A DNA stretch of 64,000 nt from Qipengyuania profundimaris (GTDB lineage Bacteria; Pseudomonadota; Alphaproteobacteria; Sphingomonadales; Sphingomonadaceae). Positions within the stretch are counted from its first letter, which is position 1. Every line of letters begins with the position of its first letter. The notes under the pieces were generated by a model. The model saw only the letters and a program-made list of their open reading frames with translations, was not told the origin of the DNA and searched no databases. Positions 2,167 to 49,311 of this stretch are shown in pieces. Made by a program: the position numbers and the translations under genes. Location: assembly GCF_030717945.1 (NCBI RefSeq), contig NZ_JAVAIM010000001.1:2293131-2357130 (forward strand), given 5' to 3'.

Positions 2167-3567
2167 TCAGCCCAGGTCGCGCAGGAAGTCGGCAGTCCAC
2201 GCCTGCACGTTTTCGTCGCGCACACTTGCTACCATTTTCTCGTAGCGCGCCTTGCGCTCGTCCAGCGGCATGTCGAGCGCCTTGCGGATCGCATGGGCGA
2301 TATCGTCGGGGCTGTGCGGATTAACTAGCACCGCATCCTGCAATTGCAGCGCCGCCCCGGCGAAACTCGAGAGGATTAGCACGCCGGGATCGTCCGGGTC
2401 CTGGGCGGCAACATATTCTTTAGCCACGAGGTTCATACCGTCGCGCAAAGGCGTGACCAAGCCGATCTTCGAGGCGCGGAAAAATCCGAACAGCTCCTCG
2501 TGGCTATAGCCGCGGTTGACGTAGCGGATGGGCACCATGTCCACCTCGCTGCGCGCGCCGTTGATCTGGCCGCATTTCTGCTCCAGGGTCTCGCGGATTT
2601 CCTGATAGCTCTGCACGTCTTCGCGGCTCGGCGGAGCGATTTGGACGAAAACGAGATCGCGAATGCGCTCCGGCTCCCGGTCGAAGAAGCGCCCGATACC
2701 GTCGATCCGCTCGGGGATGCCCTTTGAGTAGTCGAGGCGGTCGACGCCGATCATCGATATGCGCCGCCGGGTCGAGGCCATCATCCGCTGCTGAGCATTG
2801 CGCGCCTCGCCGGTCTCGCCCAGCTTGCTGAAGTGGTCCCAGTCGATCCCGATGGGATAGGCGCGCGCCAGCGTCGTGCGTCCGTCCAGCGTGACGCTGC
2901 CGCTGTCCTCGTCCACCTCGGCGCCCAATTCGGTGCGGCAATAGTGCAGGAAGCTGTCGAGCCATTCCTTGGTCTGAAAGCCGACGAGGTCGTAATGCAG
3001 CATCGTGCGCACCAGCCGCTCGTGATAGGGTAGCGAGACGAACAGCCGCGTGGCGGGCCAGGGAATGTGAAGGAAGAACCCGATCCGGTTTTTCAGTCCG
3101 CGCGACCGCAGGCGTTCGCCGAGCGGGATCAGGTGATAGTCGTGCACCCAGACGACATCGTCGTTCTCAATCAACGGAGCTGCAAGCTCGGCGAAGCGTT
3201 CGTTGACGCGTTCGTAGCCCTTGCCGGTCTCCCGCTCGAACTTCGCCAGATCGAGGCGGTAGTGGAACAGCGGCCAGAGCGTCGAATTGGCGTAGCCGTT
3301 GTAATATTCCTCGATATCGCGCTGCGAAAGGTCGATGGTCGCGGTGGTCACGCCATCGTTGGTCTGGGTGTCGATATTGCCGGTGCGCCCGCTCTCGCTT
3401 TCCTCGCCCGACCAACCGAACCACAGGCCCTCGCGGTCTTTCAATGCCGCATGCAGCGCGCCTGCCAGCCCCCCTTGCGCACCTGCTGCGCCGCGCGCCT
3501 TGGGCACGGCAACGCGGTTGGAAATGACGACGAGACGGGGGGTGTCGGTCAGCGGACTTCGCTCCAC
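2167..3567 (-). CDS. otsA: Alpha,alpha-trehalose-phosphate synthase (UDP/GDP/ADP-glucose)
   Basis: GT20 glycosyltransferase making trehalose-6-phosphate from a nucleotide-glucose and glucose-6-phosphate. It is 466 residues long, as is usual. The N-terminal SNRV and GGLAGAL segments, VHDYHL near 141-146, VDRLDYSKG near 275-283 and DGMN near 377-380 are all present. It is the last gene of the otsB-GH15-otsA operon and overlaps the GH15 stop. The start is either GTG at 3567 (used here) or CTG at 3552, whose CTGA overlap and upstream GGAG are attractive. The long upstream open frame is not coding. Likely role: osmo- and desiccation protection. Confidence 0.95.
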   Translation of the reverse strand: MERSPLTDTPRLVVISNRVAVPKARGAAGAQGGLAGALHAALKDREGLWFGWSGEESESGRTGNIDTQTNDGVTTATIDLSQRDIEEYYNGYANSTLWPLFHYRLDLAKFERETGKGYERVNERFAELAAPLIENDDVVWVHDYHLIPLGERLRSRGLKNRIGFFLHIPWPATRLFVSLPYHERLVRTMLHYDLVGFQTKEWLDSFLHYCRTELGAEVDEDSGSVTLDGRTTLARAYPIGIDWDHFSKLGETGEARNAQQRMMASTRRRISMIGVDRLDYSKGIPERIDGIGRFFDREPERIRDLVFVQIAPPSREDVQSYQEIRETLEQKCGQINGARSEVDMVPIRYVNRGYSHEELFGFFRASKIGLVTPLRDGMNLVAKEYVAAQDPDDPGVLILSSFAGAALQLQDAVLVNPHSPDDIAHAIRKALDMPLDERKARYEKMVASVRDENVQAWTADFLRDLG

Positions 3568-47009: not shown

Positions 47010-47696
47010 TTACACCCGCCCGCCCTTCCATACGACGCGGCCGATGACCTCCACCTCGTCGCGCGCGAGTTCGATCGGGGCGTAGGCATCGTTGGCGCTG
47101 ATCAGCTTGATGCGGCCCGGGGCACTGGCCTGGACCTGTTTGACATGCAGCGCGTCGCCGATGCGGACGACATGCACGCCCTCGCCCGCGCGCTTGTTGC
47201 GGTCGACGAAGATCTCGTCCCCGCTGCGCAGGAGCGGTTCCATGCTGTCGCCCTCGACGCGGATCGCGGACAGGTCGGCGCCTTCCAGCCCCATTTCGCG
47301 TAACCAGCGGCGGGAGAACTGGAAGAGATCGTAGGAAATTTCCTCTGCCGAGAAAGAGCCGGGTCCAGCAGATGCATCGAGCGGCAAGCGCGGCACTTCG
47401 ACCCACTCGCCCCGGGCGGCCGTGGGATCACCAACCTGCGCCGCATGGCGAGCGGCTGGCGGGTCGTCGAAATGCCGCGTTTCGATAGCACGCGTAGATA
47501 TTCCTAGAAACTCCGCAATCTTGCGGACATCCGGCTCGTCCAGATGACGCGGGCTGCCACGAGTCACATATTGCTGGAGATAGGCGGGATTGCGCCCGAT
47601 CAAGCGTGAAAGCCCGGCCAGGCTTGCCCCCTTATGCAGGGCCATATCCTGCAAACGCCGGCGGGCGCGCTGTTCGTCGCGTGGGATGTTTTCCAT
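47010..47696 (-). CDS. CI-like repressor with S24 autoprotease domain
   Basis: 228 residues: an N-terminal DNA-binding HTH region (ASLAGLSRLIGRNPAYLQQYV, about residues 24-44), a linker with an Ala-Gly cleavage-type dipeptide in DASAGPGSF, and a C-terminal S24/LexA-type peptidase. The catalytic Ser lies in VEGDSMEPLL and the catalytic Lys in LHVKQVQ. This is the layout of phage CI/LexA-fold repressors that self-cleave after DNA damage, but the HTH is not LexA-type. ATG at 47696. Faces a small gene across twin palindromes, so it is likely autoregulated. Confidence 0.9.
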   Translation of the reverse strand: MENIPRDEQRARRRLQDMALHKGASLAGLSRLIGRNPAYLQQYVTRGSPRHLDEPDVRKIAEFLGISTRAIETRHFDDPPAARHAAQVGDPTAARGEWVEVPRLPLDASAGPGSFSAEEISYDLFQFSRRWLREMGLEGADLSAIRVEGDSMEPLLRSGDEIFVDRNKRAGEGVHVVRIGDALHVKQVQASAPGRIKLISANDAYAPIELARDEVEVIGRVVWKGGRV

Positions 47697-47702
47697 GAAA
47701 TT

Positions 47703-47717
47703 TCCTATAGCATAGGA
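47703..47717. promoter_or_regulatory. Palindromic operator O1 between the repressor and the small gene
   Basis: TCCTAT and ATAGGA form a perfect palindrome around AGC. It starts 7 bp from the repressor start codon, as expected of an autorepression site. Confidence 0.6.
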
Positions 47718-47721
47718 TTTT

Positions 47722-47737
47722 TCCTAGACAAGTAGGA
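47722..47737. promoter_or_regulatory. Palindromic operator O2 next to O1
   Basis: TCCTA and TAGGA repeat the O1 half-sites around a 6-bp spacer. Its centre is about 20 bp from the centre of O1, near two helical turns, which favours co-operative binding of two repressor dimers. Confidence 0.6.
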
Positions 47738-47807
47738 TTTCGGTTGGAACGTATAGTGAACACGGCGAGCGATTCGCCAGTCAGTTCAGCCAATTGGGAG
47801 CTTTCGC

Positions 47808-48020
47808 ATGCTGATCCGATCCATCGAGAAATTCCTGCGCCAGCACGAAATGGCGGCCACGAAGTTCGGCCGCCTCGCCGCGCATGATCCGCGATTCGTG
47901 CTCGACCTCAGGTTGGGGCGCGAGCCGCGCGACGGCACCGAACAGCGCATCCGCGGCTTCATGGCCGGCTTCGAAGCCGCGCAAGAGAGCTGTGTGCGGG
48001 AGGCAGCCCATGTCGGTTGA
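47808..48020 (+). CDS. Small HTH-like protein divergent from the CI-like repressor
   Basis: 70 residues. The central MAATKFGRLAAHDPRFVLDLRLGREPRDGTEQRIRGFM has the spacing of a Cro-type helix-turn-helix, where the second helix would be DPRFVLDLR. This is a by-eye assignment; a short alphaproteobacterial family with T-FGR and DPRFV motifs looks the same. GGGAG lies upstream of the ATG at 47808. Overlaps the next gene by 11 bp. Its position opposite the repressor, across shared operators, is that of a phage cro gene. Confidence 0.75.
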   Translation: MLIRSIEKFLRQHEMAATKFGRLAAHDPRFVLDLRLGREPRDGTEQRIRGFMAGFEAAQESCVREAAHVG

Positions 48021-48363
48021 AGCGAAACTCAAGCGCCCTTCCCGCACCCGCCGCACGTCCGGCGACCGCTTGTGCGAAGCTCTGATGACGCTGGCCCAGC
48101 ATCACGCGCAGGTCATAACACATAGCGAAAAGGCTTGGGCCAGCATCACCTTTGCCGGGACGCGGCATTCTCTGGCGCTGGTGTTCGCAGGCGCGGACGC
48201 AGTCGAAGCGGGCGAGCATTTCGTGGCCGAGCTCCCCGATCACGAATTCGCCATTCCCGGCCAGCTGGTGGCCGACGCGACCATTGTCGAAGTCGAACAC
48301 CGCATCGCGCCCGACCCGCGGTTTGTGGTGCAATGCGAGTTGCTGTTGCTGGAGGACGCGTAA
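48010..48363 (+). CDS. Conserved-looking protein of unknown function, coupled to the HTH-like gene
   Basis: 117 residues, soluble, with a basic N-terminus (KLKRPSRTRR) and an alpha/beta body (WASITFAGTRHSLALVFAG, QLVADATIVEVEH) ending in hydrophobic strands. No family is recognised. The ATG at 48010 lies inside the end of the preceding gene, so the two are translationally coupled and probably under the same operators. Convergent with the dehydrogenase gene. Confidence 0.75.
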   Translation: MSVEAKLKRPSRTRRTSGDRLCEALMTLAQHHAQVITHSEKAWASITFAGTRHSLALVFAGADAVEAGEHFVAELPDHEFAIPGQLVADATIVEVEHRIAPDPRFVVQCELLLLEDA

Positions 48364-48372
48364 ACCGCCCGG

Positions 48373-49311
48373 TTAGTAGCCCGCGTCGAGGTCCATTTGC
48401 GGCTGGACCGGCTCGCCCGCTTCCCAGCGCTGCAGGTTCTCGATGAAGCGGTCGGCGCTGCGCTGGAACATCTTCGTTTGCGCGCGGCCCGACAGGTGCA
48501 TGGTGATCTGTGCGCTCTCCATCTCCCACAACGGATGATCGTCGGGCAGCGGCTCCGGATCGGTGACGTCCAGCAGGGCCGCTTCGATTTTCTGTTCCTT
48601 GAGGGCGGCGACCAGCGCGTCCTGATCGACCACATCGCCGCGCGCGATGTTCACCAGCACGGCATTGGGGCGCATGGCGGCGAGCTCGATTTCGCCGATC
48701 ATGCCTTTCGTTTCCTCGGTCGAGGGAACGGCGAGTACGACCCAGTCGAAGTCGCCCAGCTTCTGGCGCCACTCGCCGGGTCGCAATGCGCCCTCCCCGC
48801 CCGAGCGGCGCACCGACACCACGGTCATGTCGAAAGCTTCGAGCCGCGTCTTCACCAGGCTGCCGATCGCGCCCATGCCGAGCAGCAGGACCCGTTCGCC
48901 AGCGAGTTCGCGCTTGCCCGGGCTATCCATCAGCCATTCCTTGCGGTCCTGCGCGCGCACCACCTCGCGATAGCCCTTCGCATGGGCGAGCATCAGCATG
49001 ACGACATATTCGGCGATGGTCAGTGCGTTGATGCCGACGCCGTTGGTCACGACCACGCCGCGTTCCTTGAGCAGGTCCAGCGGCATGAAATCGAGCCCGG
49101 CATAGATCGAGTTGAGCCACTTGAGACTGGTCGCCGCCCTGGCGATCTCGATCATCGGCTCCTTCTCATTGAGGTCGAACCAGCCGATCTCGGCTTCGGG
49201 CGCGAGGTCCAGCGCCTCTTCCTTGCTGGCAAACCAGTGGGGCTCGACCCATTCGGGCAGGCGCGGTTCGACGAGCGGACGGATCAGGGCGGACAGGACG
49301 GCTATGGTCAT
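48373..49311 (-). CDS. D-2-hydroxyacid dehydrogenase
   Basis: NAD(P)-dependent 2-hydroxyacid dehydrogenase of 312 residues. Rossmann motif LLGMGAIGS is near residues 143-151, with catalytic Arg in VNIARGDVVDQ, Glu in TDPEPLP and His in TMHLSGRAQ (a sequence that replaces the usual PHxAG). The substrate is unknown (glyoxylate/hydroxypyruvate-type enzymes look similar). GAGGAG lies 11 nt before the ATG at 49311. Downstream of cysS and the DUF559 gene on the same strand. Confidence 0.88.
   Translation of the reverse strand: MTIAVLSALIRPLVEPRLPEWVEPHWFASKEEALDLAPEAEIGWFDLNEKEPMIEIARAATSLKWLNSIYAGLDFMPLDLLKERGVVVTNGVGINALTIAEYVVMLMLAHAKGYREVVRAQDRKEWLMDSPGKRELAGERVLLLGMGAIGSLVKTRLEAFDMTVVSVRRSGGEGALRPGEWRQKLGDFDWVVLAVPSTEETKGMIGEIELAAMRPNAVLVNIARGDVVDQDALVAALKEQKIEAALLDVTDPEPLPDDHPLWEMESAQITMHLSGRAQTKMFQRSADRFIENLQRWEAGEPVQPQMDLDAGY

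Follow-up and report, generated by a model that had tools for sequence, protein, structure and literature searches.

An S24-family repressor gene of Qipengyuania profundimaris faces a small gene across a pair of palindromes, within the 64,000-nucleotide stretch of DNA analyzed here (contig NZ_JAVAIM010000001.1, positions 2,293,131 to 2,357,130; hereafter the window). In phage lambda, the divergent cI repressor gene and the small gene cro meet across clustered operators in a similar manner. The locus raises the question of whether a switch of this type still belongs to a phage or has become part of the chromosome of its host, and of what its third gene, for P117, is doing there. The features to which the following sections refer are listed below.

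47010 to 47696, minus strand: S24-family repressor (CI-like), with N-terminal HTH, Ala-Gly cleavage site and Ser/Lys dyad
47702 to 47717: operator 1, TTCCTATAGCATAGGA, adjoining the repressor start codon
47721 to 47737: operator 2, TTCCTAGACAAGTAGGA, conserved together with its asymmetric center
47747 to 47761: LexA box of the form GAAC-N7-GAAC, GAACGTATAGTGAAC, a sequence match
47770 to 47776: CGATTCG, a CcrM site GANTC (47771 to 47775) in the extended form YGAKTCG
47808 to 48020, plus strand: P70, a small protein of 70 amino acids in the Cro position, HTH-like by sequence pattern
48010 to 48363, plus strand: P117, an orphan family protein of 117 amino acids, whose start overlaps the stop of P70
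40202 to 51510: ten neighboring genes tested against Pfam (M24 peptidase, TPM domain, MerR, IHF/HU type, PlsX type, metallo-beta-lactamase fold, 2-hydroxyacid dehydrogenase, cysteinyl-tRNA synthetase and two without a match)

The repressor and P70, and their relatives in phage elements

The product of the repressor gene matched the Pfam family Peptidase_S24 (PF00717; E value of 3.4e-21), with an additional match to HTH_31 (0.0017) below the Pfam cut-off, and, along most of the protein, the PHROG family "transcriptional repressor" (E value of 4.3e-41). The best of the listed matches to phage records included Pseudomonas phage c repressors, that of DMS3 for example, with 32 to 36% identity. The initial annotation had described a cleavage-type linker and a Ser/Lys protease in this protein, and both descriptions held: Ala110-Gly111, Ser151 and Lys186 (numbering of the window repressor) were invariant in an alignment of 50 sequences, and the corresponding residues were retained by 98% (Ala), 100% (Gly), 100% (Ser) and 100% (Lys) of 194 repressor orthologues (values rounded down). 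Because these residues are kept in nearly all orthologues, self-cleavage of the repressor is likely to be triggered by RecA.

The two genes on the opposite strand, whose reading frames overlap by 11 bases, proved far less familiar. P70 had no match to a Pfam family and P117 had no accepted match in Pfam, NCBIfam or PADLOC; searches of both proteins against Pfam, NCBIfam, PHROG and PADLOC returned nothing or isolated weak matches, and profile searches against solved structures yielded one weak match each. Comparison of the P70 profile with the HTH profile of the S24 repressors likewise gave no significant match. A phage collection searched with P70 returned weak matches to three Synechococcus phages (E values of 6e-3 to 8e-3).

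Of 190 genomes in one class sample, 16 contained relatives of P70, and 13 of these 16 do not belong to the Sphingomonadaceae. Eight loci carrying other P70 relatives were inspected, two of which represent second copies, one in this genome (on the 28-kb contig C3) and one in a relative of the genus. A divergent S24 gene adjoined the P70 relative in six of the eight, the match at L247 covering part of the S24 gene. The most informative of these relatives resides on a circular Bradyrhizobium element of 46.6 kb, which harbors portal, capsid and integrase genes, a primase/helicase-type gene farther along, and a divergent S24-P70 pair with 41% identity in the HTH part of the S24 protein and 47% in the P70 relative. 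The pair is also present on two viral contigs, L348 (46 kb) and L258 (41 kb). Moreover, TCCTA/TAGGA half-sites were enriched in six of seven S24-P70 spacers, including those of the window and the Bradyrhizobium element (fraction of shuffles at or below 0.0175), the seventh, L248, giving 0.108. The occurrence of S24-P70 pairs in phage elements, coupled with shared half-sites, identifies the pair as a phage immunity module, in agreement with the descent suggested by the initial annotation, and by the same reasoning P70 is presumed to be Cro-like by position and ancestry, a reading supported on those two grounds and not by fold.

The second divergent S24-P70 pair of this genome (G000) occupies positions 2601 to 3528 of locus L242 on contig C3; beside it lie a large open reading frame that we take to resemble a TrwC-type relaxase and another that presumably resembles an HNH protein. 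Relatives of both P70 and P117 were also observed on the viral contigs L256 and L257, with no S24 match in the stretch examined, and the alphaproteobacterial P70 relatives L245 and L246 had no S24 match nearby, phage-replication-like open reading frames being recognized by eye at L246.

Conservation of the locus in the Sphingomonadaceae

At its place in the window, the locus is surrounded by genes of a different kind: no phage gene was found among the ten neighbors between 40202 and 51510 by Pfam, two of the ten having no match, as had been claimed from the sequence at the outset. The further suggestion of the initial annotation, that the circuit had been domesticated, was strengthened by its distribution. 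Of the 397 Sphingomonadaceae genomes sampled, 362, representing 90 of 96 genera, contained P117; in a second class sample, of 289 genomes, P117 was detected in four, all of them Sphingomonadaceae. The exact 17-mer of operator 2 was present in 191 of 396 Sphingomonadales genomes and in 37 of 84 genera, with one copy per positive genome, as against none of the 396 for its reversed control, so that its occurrence exceeds chance. The genus g56 is represented by four listed genomes (G227, G264, G500 and G528; 1.9 to 2.1 Mb) without a P117 match.

Within the genus, 36 of 37 genomes yielded a P70 match, and the best 30 loci by P70 score all contained the divergent S24 gene, P70 and P117, as did all 30 loci drawn from other genera. 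A scan of public genomes with the 17-mer returned at least 120 stretches, of which the 80 listed titles carried Sphingomonadales names or broader labels of metagenome-assembled genomes, with one Hyphomonadaceae. Homologues of the three genes, for which the initial annotation had raised the case of their never co-occurring, were found together at most of the 220 loci that carry the 17-mer, 30 of which had been retrieved through P70: S24 in 219, P70 in 216 and P117 in 206, misses being situated near locus edges except at L190 and L224. These two retain the exact operator and may represent natural deletions, L190 lacking P70 and P117 and L224 lacking P117 by profile search.

As a complement to these operator-based counts, 20 loci were found via P117, comprising 12 from new genomes and 8 chosen as lacking the exact 17-mer. 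A divergent S24 gene was present in all 20 and P70 in 19, and the exact 17-mer was identified in 12 of the 12 loci whose genomes lay outside the operator search. Removal of identical promoter regions and the requirement for a P70 start reduced the 220 loci to 201 distinct promoters; since these were chosen by the exact 17-mer or by P70 (30) and all hold the 17-mer, operator 2 is invariant in this set by construction, and estimates of its conservation that were not selected in this way come from the 30 genus loci, all of which (again the best 30 by P70 score) contained it, and from the 12 new P117-found family loci. Two genomes of the genus, G004 and G022, lacked the exact 17-mer, and among eight operator-negative family genomes examined, six carried variants with one to three mismatches and two had no clear operator. 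Related sequences in all these locus counts are not independent, and some loci of different collections stem from the same genomes.

The position of the locus is partly stable. The flanking gene for the metallo-beta-lactamase-fold protein was found near 59 of the 120 listed public loci, many of which are truncated, and 67 of the 120 had one or more of five flanking genes nearby. Pairwise distances of the S24 protein correlated with those of P117 (r = 0.83, n = 181), P70 (r = 0.73, n = 193) and PlsX (r = 0.68, n = 29), and with those of three other neighbors at r values of 0.24 to 0.45. Co-occurrence and distance correlations together fit vertical inheritance at a partly stable place, and the S24 repressor, P70 and P117 are accordingly described here as what, judging from these comparisons, is one inherited module.

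The control region and the proposed mechanism

The control region between the divergent genes agrees with the CI/Cro-type architecture originally described, namely an S24 gene and P70 facing each other across twin palindromes. The palindromes share their half-sites and their centers are approximately 20 bp apart, as was claimed; the half-site spacing, however, is 5 in one operator and 6 in the other. A search with TTCCTANNNNNTAGGA, allowing 0 mismatches, had its sole match in the window at operator 1, which is well conserved within the genus and degenerate in other genera. The switch architecture of the initial annotation was thus retained in the present analysis, and the picture was incomplete in that a LexA box, a CcrM/GcrA-type site and a hotspot of transposable phages had been missed.

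The window contains one exact LexA box, for which chance alone predicts 1.57, and support for it consequently derives from its conservation: the box is present at 29 of the 30 genus loci, in 84 of the 201 distinct promoters and in 10 of 30 sampled genera. Among boxes in the same orientation, 59 of 78 stood exactly 9 nucleotides behind the operator. The genome also encodes LexA, with the same motif, as GTTC-N7-GTTC, upstream of its gene.

The P70 leader carries GANTC, observed in 196 of the 201 leaders, against a mean of 43 and a maximum of 61 in 100 shuffles that preserved single-base composition only. The runner-up among 256 gapped patterns reached 135 leaders, and elsewhere in the 201 loci GANTC occurred in 49 (first 90 bases of P70) and 16 (repressor-side stretch). 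The free base varies (T, 84; G, 74; A, 64; C, 23), which indicates that the site is kept while this base changes. GANTC was found in 30 of the 30 sampled genera and in 15 of the 20 P117-found loci, L274 being without it and the leader not being cleanly captured in four. In 185 of the 201 leaders, the site takes the form YGAKTCG on either strand, the extended form that one study described at GcrA-activated promoters of Caulobacter but did not find in Brevundimonas (PMC7987155). GcrA and a single N6_N4_Mtase gene are encoded in this genome; GANTC may nevertheless serve something other than GcrA. No promoter was found by a scan of 47600 to 48450 with the sigma-70 consensus. A hairpin in the leader was also considered, but GANTC in a partly symmetric sequence context is the better description of the shared element. 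Within the genus, GANTC often lies inside a short dyad, GGCGA..TCGCC (GACGA..TCGTC in L013), both sides of which change (window positions 47765 to 47780; loci L001 to L030).

On this basis, we consider it likely that the locus is an ancient temperate-phage immunity region which was domesticated early in the Sphingomonadaceae and to which P117 belongs as a third gene specific to the family, operating by the following steps. The S24 protein would bind the twin TCCTA/TAGGA operators and thereby repress both its own promoter, operator 1 adjoining the start of the repressor gene, and the P70-P117 promoter at operator 2. Upon DNA damage, RecA filaments are expected to elicit self-cleavage of the S24 protein, allowing expression of P70 and P117, after which P70 may occupy the same operators, as Cro does. 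LexA is predicted to act as a second lock on the P70-P117 promoter in this genus and several others, and expression would be coupled, by way of the methylatable GANTC of the leader, to cell-cycle control by CcrM/GcrA. Three signals, namely the cleavable repressor of the locus itself, LexA and CcrM/GcrA, would thus converge on one operon. Read in this way, the locus represents a family-wide case of a phage decision circuit made into a host locus, and offers, across many genomes, a named locus at which expression gated by DNA damage and the cell cycle may be sought, with P117 as the orphan gene to assay.

No paper recognized as describing the S24-P70-P117 locus was retrieved from the open-licence literature. 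The closest known kind of system is FddR of Francisella, which is reported to be likewise an S24 repressor of phage origin that was co-opted and is accompanied by a divergently transcribed gene (PMC13148647). The Ala-Gly and Ser-Lys residues and the conserved chromosomal locus with a divergent partner by which FddR is characterized are found here as well, the HTH match lying below the cut-off. FddR is described as standing in for a missing LexA, whereas lexA is present here, with a box at the promoter in the 10 sampled genera noted above. The present locus further differs from FddR, as far as the latter is described there, in the retention of a gene in the Cro position, the sharing of its promoter with LexA in some genera, the presence of GANTC, the family-wide span and the intake of phages. 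UmuDAb-DdrR of Acinetobacter also combines an S24-type DNA-damage repressor with a small partner; however, UmuDAb, a descendant of UmuD, governs several umuDC loci, DdrR acts as a corepressor, and the abstract of that account mentions no phage Cro relative (PMC11332147). The lambda-type CI/Cro region, as outlined in the FddR report (PMC13148647), shares the divergent repressor and small gene over clustered operators, whereas the present locus is a chromosomal core locus with no phage gene among its ten tested neighbors and with P117 as a third gene.

Mu-like phages at the locus

A scan of viral contigs with the 17-mer returned 16 records, 13 of which had an S24 gene at the operator; the remaining three (L288, L292 and L300), with neither S24 nor P70, were taken as chance matches. 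In all 13, the end of a phage, read by eye, lay inside P70 or within the first codons of P117: early in P70 (L286, L289, L293 and L295), at its 3' end (L285, L287 and L297) or in codons 13 to 32 of the P117 frame (L290, L291, L294, L296, L298 and L299). The P117 frame begins at the P70 stop in Sphingobium-like hosts, and its 5' part was hit in seven records, by which a reading that no insertion touches P117 was ruled out. Since L285 and L287, and also L290 and L296, share sites, the 13 records represent approximately 11 separate insertions. P117 was found beyond the phage in 3 of the 13. Of three records in which both ends could be compared, 5-bp duplications were present in two (TTGCT in G926 and CCGAA in G935) and absent from G933. 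The phage of G935 encodes a Mu-type transposase (Mu-transpos_C, rve and HTH_Tnp_Mu_1) and an S24 repressor of its own, and L298 harbors Portal_Mu, Gp27, Mu F-like and GemA genes.

To lessen selection by the operator, a second scan was performed with four phage-end motifs, which were derived from phages at this locus and hence favor them. It returned 47 contigs, of which 28 were set aside by eye, having no end repeats or shared end signature after the motif. Of the 19 judged real, 16 were at this locus, 11 of these being already-known records; the eight further records comprised five at the locus (L320, L322, L339, L341 and L343) and three elsewhere (L311, L328 and L332). L343 was assigned from 85 bases, in which the match to P70 is weak (E value of 0.002), the flanks of L328 and L332 amount to 123 and 77 bases only, and L339 was also picked up by its P70. 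The nearest named loci of the flanks include those of Sphingobium, Sphingopyxis, Sphingomonas and Altererythrobacter. On the evidence of these contigs, the locus is considered a recurrent insertion site of Mu-like phages. The opposite reading, in which the operator-bearing contigs are phages with their own copy of the switch, was rejected because three of the 13 records have P117 on the far side of the phage, the phage ends fall inside P70 or the start of P117, and the phage examined carries another S24 gene.

These records also bear on what the repressor is for. Were its main role superinfection immunity, it would silence incoming phages with the same operators, and S24-P70 pairs sharing the half-site do occur in phage elements, while contig C3 provides a second S24-P70 pair in this very genome. 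However, each of the 13 viral contigs in which an S24 gene accompanies the exact operator carries the host locus beside an inserted phage, the one inserted phage examined further has its own S24 gene, and no other contig of the viral scan had the exact 17-mer at an S24 gene; immunity alone would, in addition, leave P117, the LexA box and GANTC unexplained, and we regard it as an improbable main function. A further proposal is that P70 and P117 form a toxin-antitoxin-like or killing pair silenced by the repressor, the phages observed being those of lysogens that survived its breakage. A small HTH-like gene overlapping an orphan gene, a presumed repression and the breakage of P70 or of the first P117 codons by Mu-like phages would suit such a pair; we nonetheless attach little probability to it, as P117 has no accepted match in Pfam, NCBIfam or PADLOC and as five Sphingobium-like records fall within 7 bp, a zone narrower than selection for any break predicts.

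Least convincing, and in our estimation very unlikely, is that the locus regulates the gene transfer agent (GTA) of the family, its S24 protein keeping GTA activators off as RogA of Caulobacter does: RogA is reported likewise to join an HTH to an S24-like domain and to repress the activators gafYZ of a phage-derived system (PMC9632790, PMC11150451), and RcGTA-like clusters are described in Sphingomonadales, with gafA homologues across GTA-bearing orders (PMC9765227), but key catalytic residues reported missing in RogA (PMC9632790) are kept here, any second copy of the operator in this genome differs at 3 or more of 16 positions, and the genomes with P117 in the 289-genome class sample are all Sphingomonadaceae. 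The marker GTA_TIM (PF13547), which may miss sphingomonad GTAs, did not exceed its cut-off in any of 60 family genomes, of which 40 carry P117 and 20 lack it.

The domesticated immunity region that we favor is compatible with a more specific role in phage integration. Mu-like phages are usually taken to insert nearly at random, and Tn7 offers a likeness for the contrary case, in that it targets a conserved gene. In five records with Sphingobium-like flanks (L290, L291, L296, L298 and L299), the phage ends lay within 7 bp of one another, 312 to 319 bases from the operator start, and this narrow zone speaks for targeting; selective loss of P70 or P117, or ascertainment, may also account for the hotspot. 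That the locus is a dedicated landing site of Mu-like phages throughout the family, with transposition guided by the repressor, P70 or the operator DNA, is proposed tentatively, and we lean somewhat against it. A parallel is the Mu-like phage phiA of Citromicrobium, from the same bacterial order and also with 5-bp duplications, which is reported to have inserted within 40 bp of sequence in a hypothetical gene in every strain (n = 24; PMC12486242, 2025). A viral scan with a Citromicrobium P70 returned L348 only. Were the landing-site proposal correct, one phage family would target the relic of another, and the 40-bp target of phiA would fall in this operon; the locus in any case suggests one specific route by which certain Mu-like phages might come to occupy a fixed place.

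Several of the Sphingobium/Sphingopyxis-like loci, and those of genus g32, also display a third palindrome on the P70 side of operator 2, ahead of P70, with the sequence ATAGGAATATNCCTAT or one resembling it; it was observed in L285, L290, L291, L294 and L296 to L299 and in L044 to L046.
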